Positions 48,770 through 62,059 are shown, counted from the stretch's first letter. The stretch is DNA of 64,000 nucleotides from Candidatus Edwardsiibacteriota bacterium (GCA_020053305.1 JAGVNJ010000067.1:1-64000), one strand, 5' to 3'. Program-made: numbers and translations. Notes: a model not told the origin generated them from the sequence alone.

Positions 48770-50524
48770 TTATCTGCCCCCCCCCAACATCTCCAGCACC
48801 CGAGGATCCTCCTTAAGGCCGTTCCTCACCGCGGTATGATAGTACTCTAAAGCCCGTTCCCGGTCGCCTATGGAATAATACAGAAAGGACAGGTGATACA
48901 GGTTCTTGCTGTCATCCGGTGAGATCTGGTGGGCCTGAAGCAGATATCTCTCGGCTTTGACCCAGTCGCCTTTTTTCAGGTAGAGATATCCCAGGTTATC
49001 GGCCCCCTCGGCCTTGTCCAGCCCCAGTTCGACGGCTTTCAGAAATTCGGATTCGGCCAGATCGGGCCGGCCGGCGTTGAGATAGACCAGCCCCAGGGTG
49101 TTGCGCATCCCGGCGTTGCCGGGATATTTGTCCAGCAAATCAAGGGCCAGCTTCTCGGCTTTCTGGTATTCCCCCTTATTGAGATAGAGCAGGCAGAGAT
49201 CGTTGTAGGCGGTGTAATGTTCGGGATTGAGCCCGAAGGCAATGATGAATTCCTTTTCGGCCAGATCCGCTTTCCCCAGATTGGCGTAACTGCGGCCCAG
49301 GATGGTATGGGCCACATAGGAATGAGGGGAGACCTCAGTGGTCTTTTTCCAGTGGGCCAGGCCGCTCCGGAAACTGCGGCTGTAGGACAGGTTGATCCCG
49401 GCAAAGAAAATGAAGATCAATATCATGATGATGCCGACTACTGGGACCGGCATCCGCTTCAGCTTATCTGGATCCAGCTGCAGCAAACTGACGGCAAAGC
49501 CGGCCAGCGGCAGGTACAGCCGGTGCTCGGCAAAGTTGGCGTAGGTGGTATTCCCCAAAAACGTAGGAGCCAGAAACAACAGAAACCAAAATATTCCGAA
49601 CAAAAACAGCTTTTTGTTTTTTACCTTTAGGTAGAATATCAAGGCCAGCAGAAAGGCCAGCCCGGCTATCCCGTAAGCCACCGGCAGGTCGGCCGGAATG
49701 GGGTCGCCGGAAAGGTTTATCGGGAAGAATATCTTGCCGATATAGCTTAAGAATCCGACCAGGCTTTCCCTAACGGTGTTCATCCTGGCGTTGGTCATGC
49801 CGGAAGATTCGCTCAGGGCCGATGCCCTTAGCAGCAGATAGGCCCCAACTGCCGTTACCCAGCCCACTATCGAAAGAAAGAATTTTTTATCGAATACCTT
49901 TTCGCTCTTATCCCACTGCAGGAATAAATAAAAGATAAGCAGGACCGGCAATAAAACGGCGGTCTCCTTGGTCAGCAGGGCCAGGGAAAAGGAAAGGATA
50001 TGCAGCAGTCCCCACAGAATGCGCCCTCCCCGCCGGTAATTCAAAAAGCAAAGGGTTGACAGCAGCACAAATACCGTCAGCAGGGAATCGTTGCGGCCCG
50101 GTATCCAGGCCACCGCCTGGATCAGCACCGGATGGATGGCAAACAACAGCGCGGCTACCAGGGCTGCAGTTTTCTCCGTTTTCATGGTTTTAAGGAACAG
50201 GTACAGCAGACAGCAGGCCAGCAGATGGATCAGGATATTTCCCAGATGAAAGATGAACGGCCGGGTGCCGCCGATAAGAGTATCGGCCATGAACGACAGG
50301 GTCAGCGCCGGCCGGTAGTAGATCCCACGGTTCCCCCATACCACATCGGTGGCGAAGGCCTTCAAAATGTTGGCCGGGTCCTTCAGAAAACGGGCCTTCT
50401 CCACCAGCAGCTCCACATCATCGTGGCTGCTGAAATCGTAAAAAATCGTCTGGCCGTAGATGGCAATGACCAGCAGGGATATCAGCAGGTAAGGAAAGAA
50501 ATGATGTTGGTATATCTTATTCAT
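48770..50524 (-). CDS. TMTC-like membrane protein with C-terminal TPRs (GT-C fold candidate)
   Basis: 584 residues. About ten membrane segments occupy residues 10-385 and at least five TPR units fill 400-584 (YVAHTILGRSYANLGKADLA, AYNDLCLLYLNKGEYQKAEK). The first loop has the acidic pair in SSHDDVELL (Asp35-Asp36), followed by YYRPALTLSF, FHLGNILIHLL and HPVLIQAVAWIPGRND (131-146). These match the signatures of eukaryotic TMTC proteins (family GT105 O-mannosyltransferases), so a membrane mannosyltransferase is possible; activity is inference. It is a tandem paralogue of the next gene, overlapping it by 8 bases. Confidence 0.75.
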   Translation of the reverse strand: MNKIYQHHFFPYLLISLLVIAIYGQTIFYDFSSHDDVELLVEKARFLKDPANILKAFATDVVWGNRGIYYRPALTLSFMADTLIGGTRPFIFHLGNILIHLLACCLLYLFLKTMKTEKTAALVAALLFAIHPVLIQAVAWIPGRNDSLLTVFVLLSTLCFLNYRRGGRILWGLLHILSFSLALLTKETAVLLPVLLIFYLFLQWDKSEKVFDKKFFLSIVGWVTAVGAYLLLRASALSESSGMTNARMNTVRESLVGFLSYIGKIFFPINLSGDPIPADLPVAYGIAGLAFLLALIFYLKVKNKKLFLFGIFWFLLFLAPTFLGNTTYANFAEHRLYLPLAGFAVSLLQLDPDKLKRMPVPVVGIIMILIFIFFAGINLSYSRSFRSGLAHWKKTTEVSPHSYVAHTILGRSYANLGKADLAEKEFIIAFGLNPEHYTAYNDLCLLYLNKGEYQKAEKLALDLLDKYPGNAGMRNTLGLVYLNAGRPDLAESEFLKAVELGLDKAEGADNLGYLYLKKGDWVKAERYLLQAHQISPDDSKNLYHLSFLYYSIGDRERALEYYHTAVRNGLKEDPRVLEMLGGGR

Positions 50525-52373
50525 TGCTGCCTTGGCGTTGCATCTTTAGATTATTTTCCATGAACTGGTTCCGGGGACAGCCCCGATCCAGCGCTTTTTG
50601 ATACTGACTCCGGGCTTGGTCTGTTTCCCCAACAACCAGGTACAGCTGGGCCAGATGCAGGTTTATCATCGGATCCCGGGGAGAAATTTCCAGTGCTTTT
50701 ATCAGTTGAATCAAAGCTTCATCATATTTTTTTGATTGGGTGAGTACAAGGCCCAGGTTATGGCGCGCCCCGGCGTTGTTGCCGTCTATGGCCAGCGCCT
50801 GCCGGAGGAAGATCTCCGCCGAATCCGGCACTCCCAACTGCAGGTACAGAACGCCCAAGTTGACCATCGGGTCGGCCCGCTGCGGCTCAAGCTCAATGGC
50901 TTTGAGAAGTTCGTTTCGGGCTTCGGACAATAGCCCTCGGTTGAAATATACCAGCGCCAGGTTATTATGAACATTGGCGAATTTGGGATCTATCTCCAGC
51001 ACCTTTTTGAATTCCATCTCGGCCGAACGCAGATCGCCTATTTCCAGATAAAGAAGAGCCAGGTCATTGTGGGCCGAAATCCCGCTTTCTAGATCTAATG
51101 ATCTGATATATTCCCGGCGGGCCTCCTCCATCCGGCCGGATTTAAAATGCATCCGTCCCAGCATCTGGTGGGCCAGAGCAGAGCGGGGGGAGGTTTTGAC
51201 GGCATTGCTCCAGAAGCGGTTGCCGTCGGAAAAGACTCCAATATGATTGAAGGTCATGGCCCCGAAAGAAAGGATAACGACTGCCCCGAACGCGGTCATC
51301 CCTTTATCCGGAATATTTCTGAGGAGATTGCTTTCCGCCAGGATCAATATGATGCCCAGCATCGGCAGATACAACCGGTGTTCCAGAAAATTGATGGAGC
51401 TGGATACCGGAATGAAGGTGGGCAATAGAAAAAGAACGAACCAGAAAGCCCCGAAAATAAAATTCTTTTTATTGCTGATGCCTCTCAACCAGACGATCAT
51501 TACCAGCAAGGCCAGCCCGGCCATTCCGTAGAGCAGATTAATGTCCCCGGAAAGCGGAAGCACCGACAGGTTGAACGGCAGGAATATCTTTCCGATATAT
51601 GAAAGCAAGCCGGCGACGACATCCGCCGCACCCGCATATTGACGGGAGGAATAGGCCCGTTCCATCCCCAGGGCCAGTGCTCGCAAGAAAAGCCACGCAA
51701 TTGTGATGGCCGCCCAGCCGGGCGCCAATGCTTTCCAGGATCCTTTGAATTTCCCTTTTAAAACCAGATACGGCAGAAACAGCATCGGAACAAAAACCGC
51801 CGCCTCCTTGGTGAACAGGGCCGCCAGCCAAGCCGCAAAATGCATTGCCAGCCAGGTCTTGCTTCGCTGGCCGGAATATTTTATCAGGGCGATAAAGGCC
51901 GACAGGATAAAGATCGCCAGCAGCACATCGTTGCGGCCCGGTATCCAGCCTACGGCTTGGGATAGGGCCGGGTGCACCGCAAATAATCCGGCAAAGATAA
52001 AGGATAGTCCTTTGCGATAGTTCAGGGCATTCAGGCAGACGAACAACAACCAGCAGGCCGCGATATGCAACAAGATATTGCTTAGGTGATAGATGAAGGG
52101 CTTCTCTCCGCCCAAGGCATGGTCCAGCATGAATGACAGGCTTAAAAGCGGGCGATAGTAGGTCCCGGGGCTCTTCCAGTAGACATCGGTCTTGAAGGCT
52201 TTGATAGCATTGGAAAAATTGCCGATATTCTCCCGGTTCTCCCGGATGAGATGAACGTCATCCAGCGAGGTAAACCCGAAGCCCAGCGTCTTGGCATACA
52301 GGGCCAATACCGCCAGGGCCAGCCACAAGTATGGGGCCGGCCCGGTCAGGAATATTTTTTTTATCTTTTCCAA
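50517..52373 (-). CDS. TMTC-like membrane protein with C-terminal TPRs (GT-C fold candidate), paralogue
   Basis: 618 residues with the same layout as its neighbour: LDDVHLI (Asp38-Asp39) in the first loop, YYRPLLSLSFMLDHALGG, YHLSNILLHIAACWLL, HPALSQAVGWIPGRND, about ten membrane segments, then TPRs (AHNDLALLYLEIGDLRSAEM, VHNNLALVYFNRGLLSEARN, ARHNLGLVLTQSKKYDEALI). The gene pair probably arose by tandem duplication, but the proteins have clearly diverged. It sits just before the phosphomannomutase gene in the DNA, which could supply the mannose donor pathway (inference). Confidence 0.75.
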   Translation of the reverse strand: MEKIKKIFLTGPAPYLWLALAVLALYAKTLGFGFTSLDDVHLIRENRENIGNFSNAIKAFKTDVYWKSPGTYYRPLLSLSFMLDHALGGEKPFIYHLSNILLHIAACWLLFVCLNALNYRKGLSFIFAGLFAVHPALSQAVGWIPGRNDVLLAIFILSAFIALIKYSGQRSKTWLAMHFAAWLAALFTKEAAVFVPMLFLPYLVLKGKFKGSWKALAPGWAAITIAWLFLRALALGMERAYSSRQYAGAADVVAGLLSYIGKIFLPFNLSVLPLSGDINLLYGMAGLALLVMIVWLRGISNKKNFIFGAFWFVLFLLPTFIPVSSSINFLEHRLYLPMLGIILILAESNLLRNIPDKGMTAFGAVVILSFGAMTFNHIGVFSDGNRFWSNAVKTSPRSALAHQMLGRMHFKSGRMEEARREYIRSLDLESGISAHNDLALLYLEIGDLRSAEMEFKKVLEIDPKFANVHNNLALVYFNRGLLSEARNELLKAIELEPQRADPMVNLGVLYLQLGVPDSAEIFLRQALAIDGNNAGARHNLGLVLTQSKKYDEALIQLIKALEISPRDPMINLHLAQLYLVVGETDQARSQYQKALDRGCPRNQFMENNLKMQRQGSNE

Positions 52374-53770: not shown

Positions 53771-54060
53771 TTATTTTATGATTATCATTTTCTTGGTTAA
53801 AACGTTTCCTCCGTTTGCCAAGCGATAGAAATACACCCCGTTGGCCACCGCCCGGCCATTGTCATCCCGGCCATCCCAGGTAACGGACCCATCCATGACA
53901 TCCCTCTCCAAATGCCTTTGGAGAGGGGCCGGGGGTGAGGTCGTTATTTCTATCAATGTTCTCACCTATTGCCCGGCAATGTTATAAACTGCAAGCTTGA
54001 CCGGCCCATCCCCTGTCAACTGACACCTGATTACTGTTGACTGATTAAGTTTAGAATAGC
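53771..54060 (-). pseudogene. Decayed C-terminal sorting (FlgD-like/Por secretion) domain with internal stop and palindrome insertion
   Basis: Reading the minus strand from about 54060: LNQSTVIRCQLTG, then GPVKLAVYNIAGQ, a TAG stop, VRTLIEITTS, an insertion encoded by the palindrome at 53902-53927, then VTWDGRDDNGRAVANGVYFY and KKMIIIK. Intact relatives read NQSTTIRYQL...VYNIAGQLVRTLV...WDGRDDNGRAVASGVYFYRL. The TAG replaces a Leu codon, and the palindrome lies exactly before the WDG part. No signal peptide or main domain remains. A short frame from 53965 exists but is unlikely to be a gene. Confidence 0.75.
53902..53927. repeat. Palindromic element inside the sorting-domain remnant
   Basis: CCCTCTCCAAA pairs with TTTGGAGAGGG (11-bp stem, loop TGCC). 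It is followed by GCCGGGGGTGAGG, giving the widespread element that translates as SPPAPLQRHLERD on the other strand. It interrupts the sorting domain in frame. Confidence 0.8.
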
Positions 54061-54146
54061 CGGCTGGTAATGTCAAGGAATAATTGATGTCCCGGATTTC
54101 AATTATCTTCTTGACTTTTAGTTCAAAATACTTGAAAATTCATCTC

Positions 54147-55925
54147 ATGCGATTCAGGCTTATCATATTGTCCTATTGTCTGTTTTTTATTCTGTCTCCG
54201 GGGTATTGTCAGGAGCCGCCCCCCCCCGGCAATGATGACGAATTCAGGCCTTTCACCATTCTGGCCCCCCTGCCGGATTCGGTGATCCCAGCCGGGGAGC
54301 CTTTGGAGATCTCCCTGTTGCTGGAGGAAGCCGCCGGCATGGACATCCACTTGCTGCTGGACGGCGTTGATATCACCGGGCAAGCCCAAGCGACTAAGGA
54401 CTATCTTTTCTATCTTTCCCCGGAGCCGCCGGAGCCCGGCCCCCACCGGATAACCGTATTGTTCACCAGCCTGTCCGATACCGTGTTCAATAATACCTGG
54501 GGCTTCAAGGCAGCTGCTTTGGATACCGCAATTTCCGGGCCGATCAAGATACCACTTGATATCTCCCTTACCGCCGGAATGTTCTATTCGCAATGCGACC
54601 GTGATACCACCAGGTTGGGCCTTAGCTACCCTATAGGCTGGCATCCCTCGGGCGATGTGAACTTCTCGGGACAGCTGGACGGCGGTTTTTTCAATTCGTA
54701 TCTATCTTACGATCCGGCCTACGACAAACATCTTCACGGACTGCTGCAGTTCGAGAATTCCTCCTTCGGACTGTCCGCCGGAGAGTTCTACCCCGAGCTG
54801 TCAACCCTGGTATTCTCCGGAACATCCCCCCTGGGGCTGCTGGCCACCTGGCAGGATAAAAAGACCCGGATCTTGGGCACCGCCTGCCGCACCCAGCCGG
54901 CCGACACCCTGTTTCAGACCTATGCCCAGTACCTCTACGGCGGCCGCATAAAAAGATCCCTGGCCGACAGTCTCTGGCTGTCCGGGGGATACCTTTACGG
55001 ATATGACCAGCCGGGCTCCCTGCCTGATTCGGTGCGCTTTCGGTCATCCACCTACATTTATAATGACACCCTGACCGGCTTCTCCGATACCCTGATAACA
55101 GTGGACACCCTGTTATCGGGAAAGAACCGCCTCTGCTGGTTCTCCCTGGAGTGGCCGATCAGCGGAGCCAGATTCCGCACCGAGTATGCCGGATCGGGCT
55201 TCCTGCCGGATTCAGCGGCCGGATACATCAATGACCGCAGTTTTCTTTTGGGAGTAAAAAAGGGGATGGGACGCCACATGCTGGACATGCAGTATATCTC
55301 CTGGGGCCGTAACTTTAAAAGCTTCGGCAATCCATATCTGGAAACAGCCAAGAACGAGCTCCTGGGGGCAGCCGACCTCCGGTTCCCCGGCAGCCTGTCG
55401 GCCAGACTGGACGGCTCGGTGTACAAGGTTTTCACCGATTCCGCCTCCGGCAGCAGCTTTAAACTGGGGGGGGGCTTGAATTATGCCCGGGGACGGCTGA
55501 CATCGGCCAGCCTGCGGCTGGATTATAACTACCGACCATATATCGCCTATCTTTACCAGAACCGAAGCCTGAGCCTGAGCGCCGTGACCAAACTGGGGGT
55601 TTTCTCGGTGATGTCCTCCTATTCTTACTCCTCAAGTTCCGGCATCAGCCTGACCCAGTCTCATAACGGAATGTTGGGCATCTCCCGCTATTGGATACAG
55701 GACCGATTATATGTCCAGGCTTCTGGTCAGCACTATCAGGTCTTCGACAGCTACGGCTTGACCGACCAGGCCCGGACCACCGCCCAACTGAGAGCATCCT
55801 GGCAGGCCTCGATCCATACCGGCATCATTTTTGATTGCCGGGATATACAACACCGTGACCGGATCGCTCCGGATAAAGGTTATCGCCAACAGCTGGCATC
55901 GCTTTCGGTTAGCTATAGATTTTAG
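54147..55925 (+). CDS. Secreted/outer-membrane protein with N-terminal Ig-like domain and beta-barrel body
   Basis: 592 residues from the ATG at 54147, which begins a signal peptide (LIILSYCLFFILSPGYC). Residues 33-122 form an Ig-like domain (LLLDGVDIT 69-77, YLFYL 86-90, GPHRITV 98-104, WGF 118-120) that aligns with the end of the anti-sigma factor two genes away. The rest has many alternating strands (LRLDYNYRPYIAYLYQNRSL, SVMSSYSYSSSSGISLTQ) and ends in LASLSVSYRF with terminal Phe, as in outer-membrane barrels. No known family. It opens the only plus-strand block. A weak TTGACT/GAAAAT pair lies directly upstream but would leave almost no leader. Confidence 0.75.
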   Translation: MRFRLIILSYCLFFILSPGYCQEPPPPGNDDEFRPFTILAPLPDSVIPAGEPLEISLLLEEAAGMDIHLLLDGVDITGQAQATKDYLFYLSPEPPEPGPHRITVLFTSLSDTVFNNTWGFKAAALDTAISGPIKIPLDISLTAGMFYSQCDRDTTRLGLSYPIGWHPSGDVNFSGQLDGGFFNSYLSYDPAYDKHLHGLLQFENSSFGLSAGEFYPELSTLVFSGTSPLGLLATWQDKKTRILGTACRTQPADTLFQTYAQYLYGGRIKRSLADSLWLSGGYLYGYDQPGSLPDSVRFRSSTYIYNDTLTGFSDTLITVDTLLSGKNRLCWFSLEWPISGARFRTEYAGSGFLPDSAAGYINDRSFLLGVKKGMGRHMLDMQYISWGRNFKSFGNPYLETAKNELLGAADLRFPGSLSARLDGSVYKVFTDSASGSSFKLGGGLNYARGRLTSASLRLDYNYRPYIAYLYQNRSLSLSAVTKLGVFSVMSSYSYSSSSGISLTQSHNGMLGISRYWIQDRLYVQASGQHYQVFDSYGLTDQARTTAQLRASWQASIHTGIIFDCRDIQHRDRIAPDKGYRQQLASLSVSYRF

Positions 55926-56033
55926 GAACCATTGGTTGGTTGGTGGACTCTAATCAATATAATAAATATCAAACGATATTTAACGCCTTGTTCGCTATGG
56001 ATTTAACCTCATGGGTGGATATTGATATCCGCC

Positions 56034-56062
56034 GGAACTTTTCAGCAACAAAATTACTCTAA
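56034..56062 (+). promoter_or_regulatory. Candidate ECF-type promoter upstream of the sigma factor gene
   Basis: GGAACTT (56034-56040), a 16-base spacer, and CTCTAA (56057-56062) follow the ECF/sigmaE pattern of GGAACTT-N16-TCTAA. It lies 20 bases before the ATG of the sigma gene, giving a leader of about 13 bases. It would allow autoregulation. Confidence 0.5.
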
Positions 56063-56081
56063 CCTACAGATAATCGATAAT

Positions 56082-56609
56082 ATGCCTGAAAAACAGCGGC
56101 TGGAATTTGAAGAAGTTCTGGATAAATACGGGCAGAAGCTGTTCAATCTGATGCTCCGGCTGACCGGCAACTACCACTGGGCCCAGGACCTGACGCAGGA
56201 TGTTCTTTTGATAGCCCATCGCGAATACCACAAGTTCCGGGGGGACTCCGATGTCTTCACCTGGATATACCGCATCGCCGTCAACCATCACCGCCGGCAG
56301 GCTCGCAAGATGCGGGTCCGAAGCTGGCTGGGCTTCGAGGATGTCTCCAGCGAGGTGTTGTCCACCGATATTACGGCTGCCGACCCGGCCGAAAGCAGCG
56401 AAAGGACCAAGGTGGTGGCCCGGGCGGTATCCGCTCTGCCGGAGGACTTCAAAGAGACCGTGGTGCTGCATTATTTTCAGGACCAAAGCTGCGAACAGAT
56501 CGCCAAGATAATGGATTGCTCGGAGGGAACCGTAAAATCAAGACTATGGCGGGGCCGGAAGATCCTGGCCCAGAAACTAAAAGGTTATATATCTGAAACA
56601 GGAGTGTGA
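56082..56609 (+). CDS. ECF-type RNA polymerase sigma factor
   Basis: 175 residues from the ATG at 56082. Region 2 is clear (FNLMLRLTGNYHWAQDLTQD, then FRGDSDVFTWIYRIAVNHHR) and region 4 has the helix-turn-helix LHYFQDQSCEQIAKIMDCSE and GTVKSRLWRGRKILAQKL. No region 1.1 or 3 is present, as usual for ECF factors. It would direct RNA polymerase to envelope-related promoters, held inactive by the anti-sigma factor encoded 4 bases downstream. An upstream ATG at 56022 would extend the protein over the candidate promoter and has no homologous look. Confidence 0.92.
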   Translation: MPEKQRLEFEEVLDKYGQKLFNLMLRLTGNYHWAQDLTQDVLLIAHREYHKFRGDSDVFTWIYRIAVNHHRRQARKMRVRSWLGFEDVSSEVLSTDITAADPAESSERTKVVARAVSALPEDFKETVVLHYFQDQSCEQIAKIMDCSEGTVKSRLWRGRKILAQKLKGYISETGV

Positions 56610-56613
56610 TAAA

Positions 56614-57312
56614 ATGAATTGCCAAAAAATTGAAGAACATCTGCGGGAAAATCCCGGGGCCCCGTTGCCTAGGGAACTGCAGGAACATATAGCCCAATGC
56701 CCGGCCTGCTCTTTGTTGTGGCGGGAGCAGCAGGCCTTGAACGATATTCTGAAAGCATTTCCCCAGGTGGAACTTCCGGCCTACCTAGGCGCCAAAGCCT
56801 TGTCCCGGCTGGAGGGCCGGCAGAGGGTCTCCGGCAAAAAGCTGCTGGAGCCGGGCTGGTTGACCCTGGCCGCCCCGGCCATGGCCCTGATCGTGGCTTT
56901 TACCGCCCTGGTGATGCGTTACGAATATAGCCATCAATATGCAGACATTCCGAACCGCTCGGTATCTGTCCAGAACCAGGGCAACAATAACGCCGCTCCG
57001 GGGTCTGTCCAAAATAAACCATCAAATATTTTATCTCAGATATACCCGGTCTGGCCGTCCGACCAGGATGTGGTGGGCCGCGAGGACCTTACCATCATGG
57101 CCTCGCTGTATCCCGACCATCCGGGAAAGGTGCAGGTCCTGCTGGACGATATTGATGTCTCGGCCGGATCGACCATCAGCCGTCAGCATATCTTCTATGA
57201 CCCCAAATCCCTGGGGGCCGGAGAACATATGGTCAGGGTAGTGCTGCAGCAGGCTGACGGAAGCTATCAAACGGCCAGCTGGAGCTTCTACCTGTTGGAG
57301 GAACCATCATGA
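56614..57312 (+). CDS. Anti-sigma factor, zinc-finger (ZAS/zf-HC2) type, with periplasmic Ig-like domain
   Basis: 232 residues. The cytoplasmic anti-sigma domain has the H-x3-C-x2-C motif at His25, Cys29, Cys32 (EHIAQCPAC) plus Cys3. One membrane segment lies at 81-101. The periplasmic part ends in an Ig-like domain (VLLDDIDVS 175-183, HIFYD 192-196, GEHMVRVV 203-210, WSF 223-225) that aligns, with the same spacings, with residues 69-120 of the outer-membrane protein at 54147. It should hold the sigma factor at the membrane until a signal arrives. Its stop overlaps the next start by 4 bases. Confidence 0.88.
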   Translation: MNCQKIEEHLRENPGAPLPRELQEHIAQCPACSLLWREQQALNDILKAFPQVELPAYLGAKALSRLEGRQRVSGKKLLEPGWLTLAAPAMALIVAFTALVMRYEYSHQYADIPNRSVSVQNQGNNNAAPGSVQNKPSNILSQIYPVWPSDQDVVGREDLTIMASLYPDHPGKVQVLLDDIDVSAGSTISRQHIFYDPKSLGAGEHMVRVVLQQADGSYQTASWSFYLLEEPS

Positions 57313-58988
57313 AAAAGATGCATTTAATACTGATCCCCTGGCTGCTGATATCATCGGCAGCCCTGCAGGCCGCCGGGCTTCAGGTCTCGCCTAATCCGGC
57401 AGAGGTCCAGGTCAATACTGTCGTTGCCTTCACCGTCCAGGGTCTGGAGCCGGGTGGGTCGTTAAACTGGGAGGTCATTCCGGCCACTCTGGGAAATATT
57501 GACCAAAGCGGACTTTTCACCGCATCGGTCAAGCCTGGCCGGGGAATGATAAGAGCCATAGCCAAAAACAAGGATGGCCGGGCCACGCTGGGACACGCCA
57601 TGATAAAAGTTTTAGGGAACAAATCGGTCCGACTTACGGTATCGGTATCGCCTACCAGGGCCGAGACCAAGATCGGCGAAACCCTGCGTTTTGCGGCCCG
57701 GATTATACTGCCAGATGAAAATATCAAAACCGAATGGCTGGTCATCCCCAATGATCTGGGAAGCATAGATGCCCAGGGCAATTTTATGGCCACCGGCACC
57801 GGGAAGGGCCGGATTGTGGTAATTGCCAAAGGAACGGGAAAGTATGGTTTGGGTCAGGCCCAGTTAAATATTTTACCTTCCGGCAAAGCCTCAAGCCTGT
57901 CGGTGGTTGTTTCACCTAAAAGAATCAAACTGCAGCCGAAAAACCGGATCCGGCTGGCCGTTCAGGTCCAGGACCCGGAGGGCCAAACCGTCAGAGCCAG
58001 ACTCAGATACACCCTGTCTCCCCCGGAGCTGGGAACCATCGACCAGGACGGAAATTTTACCGTCGGAGAAAAGGCCGGACTGGGGATTATCAAGGTTGAG
58101 GCCGCTTCCGGATACGCCTTGGGCAGCGACCGGGTCTTTGTCATAGTCTCCGAAAAAAGCAGCCGCTATCAGATAAAGCTCAAACCTCGCCAGATGGTAA
58201 TGGAGGCCAGATCAAGTGCCAAATTCGAGGTTGAGGTATGGGACGAAAACGGCAGCCCGGTGATCCCGCCAGCCCTGGACTGGAAGGTGATCCCCGAGGG
58301 CCTGGGTTCGATCACCCCCCTGGGGCTGTTCACTGCTGGAGACCGGATACTGTCCGGCAAAATTGTGGCCCAGCTGCCGGCCGAATTCGGCCGGGGTCAG
58401 GATGTTGCCTCGGTCAAGATACAAAGCAAGGATCGGAGGACCATCCGGATAAACCCGCCCAAGGCCAGCCTGAAGCCGGGGCAGATGATGCAATTCTCGG
58501 CCGCCATAAGCGACAGCCGGGGCAAGCCGGCCGGAGATCAGCGCATCACCTGGAAGCTTCAACCGGATAACCTCGGCATCATCACCCCCCAGGGACTGTT
58601 TACTGCCGGAGCGGCAGCCCGGTCGGGCTTGGTCATCGCCGAACTTCCTCCGGAATTCGGAGCCACCCGGGCCATCGCTCCGGTCGTCATCAGCAGCTAC
58701 CAGATCAAGATCTCCGCCCCGCCCAATCAATATAACATCCACACCGGGGAGCAGGTCACCTTTGCCGCCTCGGTGCGGGATGCCAACGGGAACGACCTGA
58801 GCAGCTCGGCCGTCTTCGAATGGGAGGTGAAATCAACGGCCTCCGGTTTCGGCACCATCAACAGCTCATCAGGATTATTCAGTGCCGGTCACCCGGCCAA
58901 GCTTCCGGCCGATGGCTACATCATGGTCCGGGTTTCCATCAACGGACTGCCGGCGGGAACCGATGGCATAAAAATAACCATTAGATAA
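57309..58988 (+). CDS. Secreted Ig-like repeat protein (six repeats)
   Basis: 559 residues with signal peptide (LILIPWLLISSAALQAAG) and six repeats of about 80-90 residues, each with a conserved turn: LGNIDQSGLFTA, LGSIDAQGNFMA, LGTIDQDGNFTV, LGSITPLGLFTA, LGIITPQGLFTA and FGTINSSSGLFSA. These are Big-like/bacterial Ig domains common in surface adhesins and stalk-like proteins. There is no sorting domain, lipobox or barrel at the C-terminus, so it is either periplasmic or released. It is translationally coupled to the anti-sigma gene and is probably a partner or target of the signalling module. Confidence 0.82.
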   Translation: MKKMHLILIPWLLISSAALQAAGLQVSPNPAEVQVNTVVAFTVQGLEPGGSLNWEVIPATLGNIDQSGLFTASVKPGRGMIRAIAKNKDGRATLGHAMIKVLGNKSVRLTVSVSPTRAETKIGETLRFAARIILPDENIKTEWLVIPNDLGSIDAQGNFMATGTGKGRIVVIAKGTGKYGLGQAQLNILPSGKASSLSVVVSPKRIKLQPKNRIRLAVQVQDPEGQTVRARLRYTLSPPELGTIDQDGNFTVGEKAGLGIIKVEAASGYALGSDRVFVIVSEKSSRYQIKLKPRQMVMEARSSAKFEVEVWDENGSPVIPPALDWKVIPEGLGSITPLGLFTAGDRILSGKIVAQLPAEFGRGQDVASVKIQSKDRRTIRINPPKASLKPGQMMQFSAAISDSRGKPAGDQRITWKLQPDNLGIITPQGLFTAGAAARSGLVIAELPPEFGATRAIAPVVISSYQIKISAPPNQYNIHTGEQVTFAASVRDANGNDLSSSAVFEWEVKSTASGFGTINSSSGLFSAGHPAKLPADGYIMVRVSINGLPAGTDGIKITIR

Positions 58989-59194: not shown

Positions 59195-59229
59195 AAAGAG
59201 AGGTGCCCTGAAAGGCACCTCTCTTTTTT
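59195..59229 (+). terminator. Factor-independent terminator after the plus-strand block
   Basis: A 13-bp perfect stem (59195-59207 with 59214-59226), loop CTGAAA, followed by a T-run to 59229. On the minus strand only TTTGATTT follows the stem, but it may also stop transcription of the converging membrane-protein gene at 59239. The 206 bases before it (58989-59194) hold no gene that I can see. Confidence 0.88.
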
Positions 59230-59238
59230 AATCGGCAG

Positions 59239-60447
59239 TTATCTTTTTTTCGTCATGCTGACGGCTTTGCTCTTCTTCAAAACCTTCCGGGGTTTCTTAT
59301 CCTTCAGGGGTTCGGCTTCCTCTGTTTTCTTTTCGTTGTCATCGATCGTCTGGCAGGTTTCCTCCGGGGACCCTTCCTCCCTGGCGAAGATGTCGCGCTG
59401 GTCCCTCTTCATCACTATTATCCCGTAGATGATGGTCTGCCCGGTAACGAAGACGCCCAGCAGGTACGACAGAACCAGCAGCCGGACGGCGTTCAGTGAC
59501 ATCCCCATGATGAATGCCGCCGTCTGGCCGGACCAGCTAAGGGCCGGAGCCGCCGTCATGAATGAGGAGAGGCCCGATATCATGGGATTATCCATCCCCA
59601 GAAACATAATATAATTGGTCGCCAGCGGTGGAGTATACAGATTGAAAGCAGCAATGGCGATGTCGGCGAATTTGCCGCCCATCGACCAGGACAGGACCTG
59701 GTAAGCTATGCCCAGCCCGCTGACGGTGAACCAGGCAAAAAGCCCCGCCGCAACAAGGCACAGTATCTTTAGGAGCCCGGTATAGGCCACCAGCCTCCAG
59801 GGCTGGGCGGTAAGGGACGAGAACACCTCGAATAGGTTGTCAAAGGCATCGCCCCTGGTGGCGCCGGAGATCACCGGGGAAAAGAACAATCCTATGGCCA
59901 AAGAGACCAGCAGGAAGACCAGGAACAAACACACCAAGTAGATGGGCAGGCTCAATAGGGCGATGGTCAATTCTCCCAGCACCGGTATCCGCCCCCACCA
60001 GCCGGACAGCATTCCGGCCAACAACAGCAGCAGCACGAAGAAGATTATGACCAGCGGCCCGCCCAGGATGGATTTCCAGGCCCCTTTCAGATAAGCGGCG
60101 GCTTCCTTCACTTCGTAAAATTCATTGCCTTTCAATTGCTCCGCCGCCAGGCGGGCCGTTACCGCGGCGGACATCATGTATATCAGCAAGGCGCCCAAAA
60201 GCCCGACCATCCACAGCACCCAGGAAATGGCCCCGGAGCCGGGCCAGGGCATTGCCGGAACCAGACCGAACATCACCCAGACATCGGCCAGGCTGCGGCC
60301 GGCAACCATGTGGGACGCATATCCGAATATTCCGTATACGGCAAAACCACATACCAGTCCCCAAAAGAGAACCCACATTTTTTTGGGCGACAGTCCCAGC
60401 CTGGCCGCCCGGAAAACATCCCGGTAATCAAAATACATCTTCAGCAA
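59239..60447 (-). CDS. Polytopic membrane protein with basic C-terminal tail, unknown family
   Basis: 402 residues with about seven to eight membrane segments (for example MWVLFWGLVCGFAVYGIFGY, LVIIFFVLLLLLAGML, LTIALLSLPIYLVCLFLVF) and a highly charged tail (KDKKPRKVLKKSKAVSMTKK). I do not recognise the family, though the layout resembles YIP1/DUF-type membrane proteins. The start is a TTG at 60447: AGGAGG lies 8 bases upstream, while the ATG at 60438 would be 17 bases away. It converges with the plus-strand block. Confidence 0.7.
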   Translation of the reverse strand: MLKMYFDYRDVFRAARLGLSPKKMWVLFWGLVCGFAVYGIFGYASHMVAGRSLADVWVMFGLVPAMPWPGSGAISWVLWMVGLLGALLIYMMSAAVTARLAAEQLKGNEFYEVKEAAAYLKGAWKSILGGPLVIIFFVLLLLLAGMLSGWWGRIPVLGELTIALLSLPIYLVCLFLVFLLVSLAIGLFFSPVISGATRGDAFDNLFEVFSSLTAQPWRLVAYTGLLKILCLVAAGLFAWFTVSGLGIAYQVLSWSMGGKFADIAIAAFNLYTPPLATNYIMFLGMDNPMISGLSSFMTAAPALSWSGQTAAFIMGMSLNAVRLLVLSYLLGVFVTGQTIIYGIIVMKRDQRDIFAREEGSPEETCQTIDDNEKKTEEAEPLKDKKPRKVLKKSKAVSMTKKR

Positions 60448-60487: not shown

Positions 60488-62059
60488 TCAGCTCAGGTTA
60501 TCTATCAGCAGTTTGCAGATATAATCCTCGATCCGCCTGGCCAGTTTCGAGCGGTAGGTGTTGTTCACCATTATGGAGAAGGCGAACATCTTGCCGTTCT
60601 TGGCCGTCAGGTAGCCGGATAAGGCCGAGACCCCGCCGATGGATCCGGTCTTGGCGTAGACCCGGCCGCAGAAATCCGGCTGGGAGAACCTTCCCGACAG
60701 GGTGCCGTCTATCCCGCCGATGGCCAGCGATTTATAAAATACGTCCCAGTATGGCTGTTCGTGCATGTATTTGAGAAGGTTGACCATCTGCAATGGCGAT
60801 ACTTCATTCTGCCGGGACAGCCCGCAGCCGTCGAACAGGTCCACCTCCCCCAGGCCCATCTGGCTGATGATGCCCCGCTCGGCCGAGGAGCCCCTCTCCC
60901 GGCTGCCCTCGCCGTCCACCTCGGCTCCGATGGTCTGTAGCAGCGATTCGGCGTAGAGATTGTGGCTTTTTTTGTTGATGACCTTTATGATCTCGGAAAG
61001 AGGCTCGGAATAATGAACGTACAGCAGCGAGGTGTTGTTCTCCCGGATCGGGGGATGCTCCTGGCTGGCCCTGATATTTCCCTTGATCGCTATATCCCGT
61101 TGCTTTAAAAGTTCGGCCAAGATCCTGGCGAAATGGCTCTCCGGCTCCTTGGCGATGAAGGTGAATTTTTTAGAGGATCCGGCGGCCAGCTTTCCGGTTA
61201 TTTTCAGGGTGGCCCCGTCGAAGGAGGCGTAGGCCTTGCCGTTGTTATAGACCCGGCGGCTCTTGGTGGTATAGGTGCCGTCCTTGTTCCTCACCTTTTT
61301 ATTGACGGTGCTGTAGCTGCCGGCGATGGTTCGGCTGAGATTTTTGATGTTGATCGACATCGGGGGATCTGTGGAATAATTGACCGGCTGGCCCACCCTC
61401 CCCCCTTTGAGGGTCACCACCACCACGTTCTCCCTGAAGGAGAGGCCGGAAAGCCTCCAGGCCAGGCGTTTCTTGGGACGGACCAGTTTGTTGGCCGAGC
61501 GGGGAATGATGGAGACCAGCTTCTCGGGCAGGAAATCGCCCTTGTCGCCTATCACGTCGCCCGATATCTCGGTAATGCCCATGGCCTTGATGTTGTCGGC
61601 CCAATCCTCCATGGTGGCGATATCGTTGATGGTGGGATCGCCGGACCCCTTGATAAGCAGGTCGCCGTCCAGCACTCCGGCCGAGTCTATCGGCCCGCAG
61701 GCATATATTTCGGTCTGGTAGCTGTATTCCGGGCCCAGTTTCTCCAGGGCGGCGGCGGTGGTGAACAGCTTGGTGTTGGATGCCGGAATGAACCGTGAGC
61801 CGGAATTATGCTGATAGATAAGAGAGCCGTCATCCAGCGACATCACCGCCACCCCCCAGCGTCCTACCAGGTTGAGTTTTTTGCTTAATAATTTATCCAG
61901 GTCCTCCTGAACGTCTCCGGTGGGCTTGGGAAGATAAACCGCGCTGGAGGATTTTTTCTTGGCGGTCTTTTTAACGCTGGCCTTCGCCCCCCAGGCGCTG
62001 GAGACACATAGAGCCCCGGTTAAAATAAGGACGGATATATATGAAATTCTTTTTATCAT
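60488..62059 (-). CDS. dacB: D-alanyl-D-alanine carboxypeptidase/endopeptidase (DacB, PBP4 family)
   Basis: 523 residues, a periplasmic class C low-mass penicillin-binding protein of the S13 peptidase family, which trims or cuts peptidoglycan cross-links. After a signal peptide (VLILTGALCVSSAWG) the active-site motifs are SNTK at 94-97, SHN in NKKSHNLYAESLL and KTG in YAKTGSIGGVSALSGYL. The long insert domain between the first two motifs, typical for PBP4, is present. A lysine-rich stretch follows the signal (KKTAKKKSSS). The start overlaps the HNH gene stop by one base (TGATG). Confidence 0.92.
   Translation of the reverse strand: MIKRISYISVLILTGALCVSSAWGAKASVKKTAKKKSSSAVYLPKPTGDVQEDLDKLLSKKLNLVGRWGVAVMSLDDGSLIYQHNSGSRFIPASNTKLFTTAAALEKLGPEYSYQTEIYACGPIDSAGVLDGDLLIKGSGDPTINDIATMEDWADNIKAMGITEISGDVIGDKGDFLPEKLVSIIPRSANKLVRPKKRLAWRLSGLSFRENVVVVTLKGGRVGQPVNYSTDPPMSINIKNLSRTIAGSYSTVNKKVRNKDGTYTTKSRRVYNNGKAYASFDGATLKITGKLAAGSSKKFTFIAKEPESHFARILAELLKQRDIAIKGNIRASQEHPPIRENNTSLLYVHYSEPLSEIIKVINKKSHNLYAESLLQTIGAEVDGEGSRERGSSAERGIISQMGLGEVDLFDGCGLSRQNEVSPLQMVNLLKYMHEQPYWDVFYKSLAIGGIDGTLSGRFSQPDFCGRVYAKTGSIGGVSALSGYLTAKNGKMFAFSIMVNNTYRSKLARRIEDYICKLLIDNLS

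Follow-up and report, generated by a model that had tools for sequence, protein, structure and literature searches.

Why should an anti-sigma factor carry, in its periplasmic part, the same kind of domain as the outer-membrane protein encoded beside it? The question is raised by a block of four genes at positions 54147–58988 of the window, by which we mean the whole 64,000-nt stretch of DNA analysed here, part of a Candidatus Edwardsbacteria genome. The answer we regard as probable is that the block encodes a self-contained trans-envelope signalling module, comparable in design to TonB-dependent cell-surface signalling but with different components, in which the state of the barrel protein would control proteolysis of the anti-sigma factor through Ig-like domains. 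The genes and domains concerned are:

54147–55925, plus strand: outer-membrane β-barrel protein, 592 aa, with signal peptide and C-terminal end ...SVSYRF (AlphaFold2, Foldseek; present in 10/10 genomes)
54252–54512, plus strand: N-terminal periplasmic Ig-like domain of the barrel protein, residues 36–122 (hhalign, AlphaFold2)
56082–56609, plus strand: ECF sigma factor, 175 aa, ATG start (Pfam, orthologues)
56614–57312, plus strand: anti-sigma factor, 232 aa, with zinc-type N-terminus, one transmembrane helix, linker and Ig-like domain
57037–57300, plus strand: periplasmic Ig-like domain of the anti-sigma factor, residues 142–229, homologous by sequence comparison to 54252–54512
57309–58988, plus strand: exported protein with roughly six Ig-like repeats (Big_2), 559 aa, its start overlapping the anti-sigma stop

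Across the 64-kb window the block is the sole plus-strand transcription unit, as the original prediction had it; a 195-aa plus-strand ORF at 62041 overlies minus-strand genes. Coupling of the Ig-repeat gene to the anti-sigma gene, likewise foreseen, takes the form of a 4-nt stop/start overlap (57309–57312). The block was also said to end in a strong terminator. The hairpin exists, but it lies ~205 nt past the last stop codon, beside the end of the convergent gene:

59195–59226, plus strand: strong intrinsic terminator hairpin separating the block from the convergent gene (stem −25.2 kcal/mol, z = −5.98)

Rfam matches at 59195–59305 were rejected as chance matches on this terminator. Elsewhere in the window, the minus strand at 48770–52373 encodes two neighbouring paralogous membrane proteins with C-terminal TPR repeats and a resemblance to TMTC-like glycosyltransferases. 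At 53771–54050 (minus strand) lies what is left of a sorting-like tail of the C-terminal kind (VKLAVYNIAGQ ... GSVTWDGRDDNGRAVANGVYFYRLANGGN), broken by a short TPGPSPKAFGEG-type repeat; near it, the upstream sequence is different in the three other genomes of the genus.

The assignment of the two middle genes to an ECF sigma/anti-sigma module was upheld by Pfam matches, orthologues and AlphaFold2 models. The sigma factor matches Sigma70_r2 (1e-11) and Sigma70_r4_2 (1.6e-12), and its orthologues in 10/10 Edwardsbacteria genomes are 51–98% identical. The ATG is taken as its start; a start at TTG 56022 would place promoter copy B (below) inside the gene. The Edwardsbacteria anti-sigma factor has an H-x3-C-x2-C N-terminus followed by a transmembrane helix (residues ~83–106 in the AlphaFold2 model, hydropathy peak 83–101), the arrangement of ZAS-type class I anti-sigma factors; C3 and H25-x3-C29-x2-C32 are invariant across the 10 genomes, and the Pfam zf-HC2 match is weak (E = 0.006). 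The conserved C-terminus, LLEExS, was excluded as evidence of binding because the Ig-repeat gene has its ribosome site and start within the same codons. A scan of genome contigs with the anti-sigma protein by itself gave no match. A site-2 protease is encoded in the genome.

The barrel protein is predicted with ~26 barrel strands (AlphaFold2 pLDDT 76.6), and its best global likeness in Foldseek is to the FimD and MtrB barrels (TM up to 0.45–0.50). Pfam returned no family for it at E ≤ 1 and NCBIfam no match; neither database revealed a TonB-receptor or plug signature in the barrel or gave the shared domain a name, and a PDB sequence search with both was empty at meaningful E-values. The Ig-repeat protein matches Big_2 at 8.4e-14, with 51.7 bits against a curated cut-off of 22.8. 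The idea that its repeats are further copies of the shared domain was rejected, the two being unrelated at the profile level compared.

The case for a shared domain began with two series of short motifs, and the residue numbers originally given for them are exact, both in the barrel protein (LLDGVD 70, YLFYL 86, GPH 98, WGF 118) and in the anti-sigma factor (LLDDID 176, HIFYD 192, GEH 203, WSF 223). Comparison of the two domain alignments (9–10 genomes each) in hhalign gave 97.2%, E = 3e-11 and a score of 61.6, far above chance: the reversed profile scored 9.7 and 100 column shuffles at most 18.2. With the sequences of a second phylum added, these values became 99.0%, 3.1e-18 and 96.0, while none of 50 shuffles scored above 16.5. 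AlphaFold2 predicts like folds for the two domains, not unrelated ones, with the elements in the same order: strand, short strand, strand, strand, a 3-residue helix and three strands. In both, the helix is flanked by short bridges and follows an ‘LDG-D-T’ turn. The anti-sigma domain is predicted at pLDDT ~90, and Foldseek matches it to a CopC/FN3-type sandwich (E = 2e-5). On these comparisons, the periplasmic Ig-like domains of the anti-sigma factor and the barrel protein are homologous.

The pairing is also specific to the locus. Genome-wide copies were counted by a search with a joint domain profile (E ≤ 1e-5), which found exactly two places per genome in 10/10 Edwardsbacteria, always the barrel and anti-sigma genes; no further match was better than E = 0.002. 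These ten genomes all keep the four genes, in constant order wherever the contig allows, with the same two convergent genes 3′ of the block. The genomes compared include metagenome assemblies. The second phylum, represented by 20 genomes of one family, has the domain in 15, with exactly two copies in 14, and lacks it in five; 13 of the 14 two-copy genomes carry both copies on one contig, ~2.7 kb apart. Gene order there is barrel, sigma, anti-sigma, Ig-repeat, and the Ig-repeat gene is present in 10/10 Edwardsbacteria and at all second-phylum loci with enough sequence. Hence the gene set is conserved in two phyla. The second-phylum anti-sigma factors, as read from G219 and G078 with their present start codons, seem to lack the zinc N-terminus, as if the sigma factor were held there by a reduced domain. 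Second-phylum anti-sigma factors at L137:6579–7328 (minus strand) and L138:5612–6238 (minus strand) align with the Edwardsbacteria profile from position 39 onward only.

In a tree of the domain, the anti-sigma copies from the two phyla group in a single clade (support 99/97) that excludes the barrel copies. Since this clade spans both phyla, the pairing did not arise by recent local duplication: either it is old, or the entire locus moved as one unit. These data bear on the possibility that there is no functional link at all, the two neighbouring exported proteins carrying the same common Ig-like domain as a relic of duplication. Ig-like sandwiches are indeed common, proteins with related domains occur in other phyla too, and homology by itself would be no proof of contact. 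A mere relic is nevertheless hard to square with exactly two copies per genome, always adjacent and jointly kept or absent across 30 genomes of two phyla (G294, on a short contig, apparently being the sole exception), or with the ancient split between the two versions of the domain. We consider it the least probable of the readings discussed here.

What, then, does the sigma factor transcribe? Comparison of upstream regions yielded a bipartite element with constant spacing, GGAAC-N18-CTCTAA, of which the block has two copies; the barrel gene has a promoter of a different type.

55925–55953, plus strand: copy A of the probable ECF promoter GGAAC-N18-CTCTAA, overlapping the barrel stop codon; precedes fecR in sister genera
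56034–56062, plus strand: copy B of the same element, 20 nt 5′ of the sigma ATG
54111–54139, plus strand: sigma70-like promoter serving the barrel gene, TTGACT-17-GAAAAT, whose end lies 7 nt 5′ of the ATG

The element precedes the sigma operon in 8 of 10 Edwardsbacteria; in G004 it precedes fecR and in G009 a lipoprotein gene adjoining the sigma gene on its 5′ side. In the second phylum it lies 5′ of the sigma gene at 14 of 15 loci, and in G219 and G078 that site is the sole exact match in the whole genome. The ten Edwardsbacteria genomes hold 34 exact sites against 7 for the pattern read backward, and 1 in 20,000 shuffles of the stretch contained a site. GGAAC-N18-CTCTAA is probably the promoter of this sigma factor. 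About five other ECF-type sigma factors are encoded in the same genome; from the position of the element in two phyla we infer that the sigma factor of the locus, not another of this type, reads it. The layout matches that of the E. coli sigma-E promoter type (GGAACTT-16-GTCTAA). No copy of the element was found upstream of the barrel gene in the 10 Edwardsbacteria. There, TTGACTTT stands 35–36 nt 5′ of the barrel ATG in 10/10 genomes. The barrel promoter ends ~7 nt 5′ of the ATG in all ten (54111–54149 in the window), so the barrel mRNA may be leaderless or nearly so.

The putative regulon is small, with 1–5 exact sites per genome. Because one-mismatch sites did not rise above control, the regulon was kept to exact sites; the exceptions are the lipoprotein sites of G001 and G003, which have the spacer of G000. 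Most sites outside the operon precede exported proteins, and nearly all output proteins have signal peptides. The most consistent output is a lipoprotein of ~300 residues, which has an exact site in six Edwardsbacteria and a one-base variant in two more. Seven loci of the second phylum have a site divergent from the barrel gene, six of them readable into a lipoprotein of the same family (link between phyla 99.0%, score 128 against 20.5 shuffled). The sites examined lead to the module itself, to the lipoprotein and to a few small proteins; among those followed up, whose downstream genes were identified in part, none was seen 5′ of chaperone or assembly genes. Two exported proteins without a Pfam match lie behind exact promoter copies on the minus strand, one of 170 aa rich in K/R/Q/T/E (L093:3121–3630) and one of 173 aa rich in W/Y (L094:2855–3373), and these sites are kept in 4/4 genomes of their genus.

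The composition of this target list weighs on whether the system works like RpoE, a misfolded outer-membrane protein releasing the sigma factor for envelope repair. A promoter of sigma-E appearance, signal peptides on nearly all outputs and the YRF at the C-terminal end of the barrel would suit such a role. A misfolded-barrel stress response fits poorly with so narrow a set of promoter sites, however, and the paucity of exact sites, with one-mismatch sites at control level, argues against general envelope stress. Nor were the followed-up sites linked to chaperone or assembly genes, and the domain of the anti-sigma factor is common to one barrel, not to barrels generally. We therefore regard an RpoE-like function as improbable.

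A fecR gene (Pfam FecR, E ~1e-20) lies between the barrel and sigma genes in two of three sister genera and in some members of the third. At L027, L028, L030, L032 and L033 the exported FecR-domain protein inside the module has 490–506 aa and a long C-terminal part. The genomes with fecR have one promoter copy 5′ of it (one base off in G009), and three of them also have a copy before the sigma gene. No fecR was found in the genus of the window, where the best other matches are only to the FecR domain of unrelated proteins; here the two promoter copies stand 109 nt apart, both 5′ of the sigma gene. The simplest reading of these tandem promoters is that fecR was deleted from between the two copies. 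G008 seems to have lost fecR independently.

Barrels with the domain but without the sigma pair beside them also occur (L143, L145, L146, L148, L150, L151 and L154), which implies, as far as gene neighbourhoods tell, that the barrel's Ig-like domain has at least one other role. At L146, L148, L150, L151 and L154, outside the phylum, FecR-domain genes lie directly 5′ of the domain-bearing barrel genes; this FecR–barrel pairing is wider than the module and apparently has not been described before. At L145 the barrel is paired with an Ig-repeat gene, again with no sigma gene. Because domain-bearing barrels pair with FecR or Ig-repeat genes where no sigma gene is present, the link between barrel and partner may be the older one. 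These pairings lend some substance to a competition for a third protein, of the kind that the original prediction proposed: the anti-sigma domain, as a copy of the barrel's, would compete with the barrel for an exported Ig-repeat or FecR partner, so that when the barrel is full or missing the free partner would bind the anti-sigma factor and switch it. The Ig-repeat gene would be well placed for this, overlapping the anti-sigma gene and being present at all loci with enough sequence. FecR, being absent from the genus of the window and from G008, is not an essential partner there. Taken as a whole, competition for a third protein appears to us rather unlikely, if less so than an RpoE-like function.

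Our preferred reading is direct pairing of the two Ig-like domains, with a shared partner as a close second. The sequence supports constitutive expression of the barrel and a sigma factor that most likely drives, through GGAAC-N18-CTCTAA, its own operon including the Ig-repeat gene, the FecR-domain protein where present and the ~300-residue lipoprotein. Across the periplasm, the barrel's Ig-like domain would pair with that of the anti-sigma factor or, alternatively, the two domains would alternate on a single exported partner, either the Ig-repeat protein or FecR. In both cases, the barrel's state, whether of ligand, cargo or assembly, would set the exposure of the anti-sigma factor to proteolysis, with site-1 and then site-2 cleavage freeing the sigma factor. 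That signalling here dispenses with a TonB-dependent receptor, barrel and anti-sigma factor communicating through paired or competing Ig-like domains, with promoter and lipoprotein output common to two phyla, is a more tentative proposal, plausible in our view without being the likelier outcome. Uncultured phyla would thereby gain a signalling system whose promoter is defined and whose targets are few.

How new is such a design? Of the signalling routes that connect a named outer-membrane protein with an ECF sigma factor, those characterised best rely on TonB-dependent receptors and STN domains. The original prediction knew of no described system of this design, which is too strong: in PupR and FoxR the C-terminal subdomain has an STN fold, as does the cognate receptor's signalling domain (PMC7186176, PMC11637429). 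An anti-sigma factor with an Ig-like domain shared with a barrel was not found described in the literature searched. FoxR and FoxA have been modelled to pair through their STN domains (PMC7186176, PMC11637429), and the contact shields FoxR from proteolysis until the signal comes (PMC11637429). This modelled contact between homologous domains is why we favour direct pairing; by analogy, the anti-sigma factor would be kept protected by the barrel's Ig-like domain until some change at the barrel left it exposed.

With TonB-dependent signalling (FecA–FecR–FecI, PupB–PupR–PupI and FoxA–FoxR–FoxI) the module has in common a barrel with an N-terminal periplasmic domain, an ECF sigma factor beside a single-pass anti-sigma factor with a C-terminal periplasmic domain and, as in PupB/PupR and FoxA/FoxR, homologous periplasmic domains on barrel and anti-sigma factor, an analogy of design in which the domain itself differs. 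Whereas the shared domain of those systems is STN, here it is an Ig-like β sandwich in both proteins. The barrel is without a TonB-receptor or plug signature and its gene without a sigma-dependent promoter, TTGACTTT taking that place in the 10 Edwardsbacteria. Moreover, the anti-sigma factor is of the zinc type and has no FecR region, FecR being a separate exported protein in sister genera, and the outputs include the Ig-repeat protein and the lipoprotein. Judged by receptor or plug signature, STN domain and barrel promoter, the module appears to stand outside the TonB family.

The RpoE–RseA–DegS/RseP (sigma-E) system is alike in its ECF sigma factor, membrane anti-sigma factor and promoter layout, and a site-2 protease is available here too. 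It differs in that no broad envelope regulon is seen from the few exact sites and in that the locus encodes a specific barrel with the sensor domain in common. The FecR–barrel pairs at L146, L148, L150, L151 and L154 have a related barrel, the same N-terminal Ig-like type and a FecR neighbour, but no sigma/anti-sigma relative was found adjoining them. If the proposed mechanism is true, the same domain on barrel and anti-sigma factor would be a recurring design rule rather than a quirk of STN.
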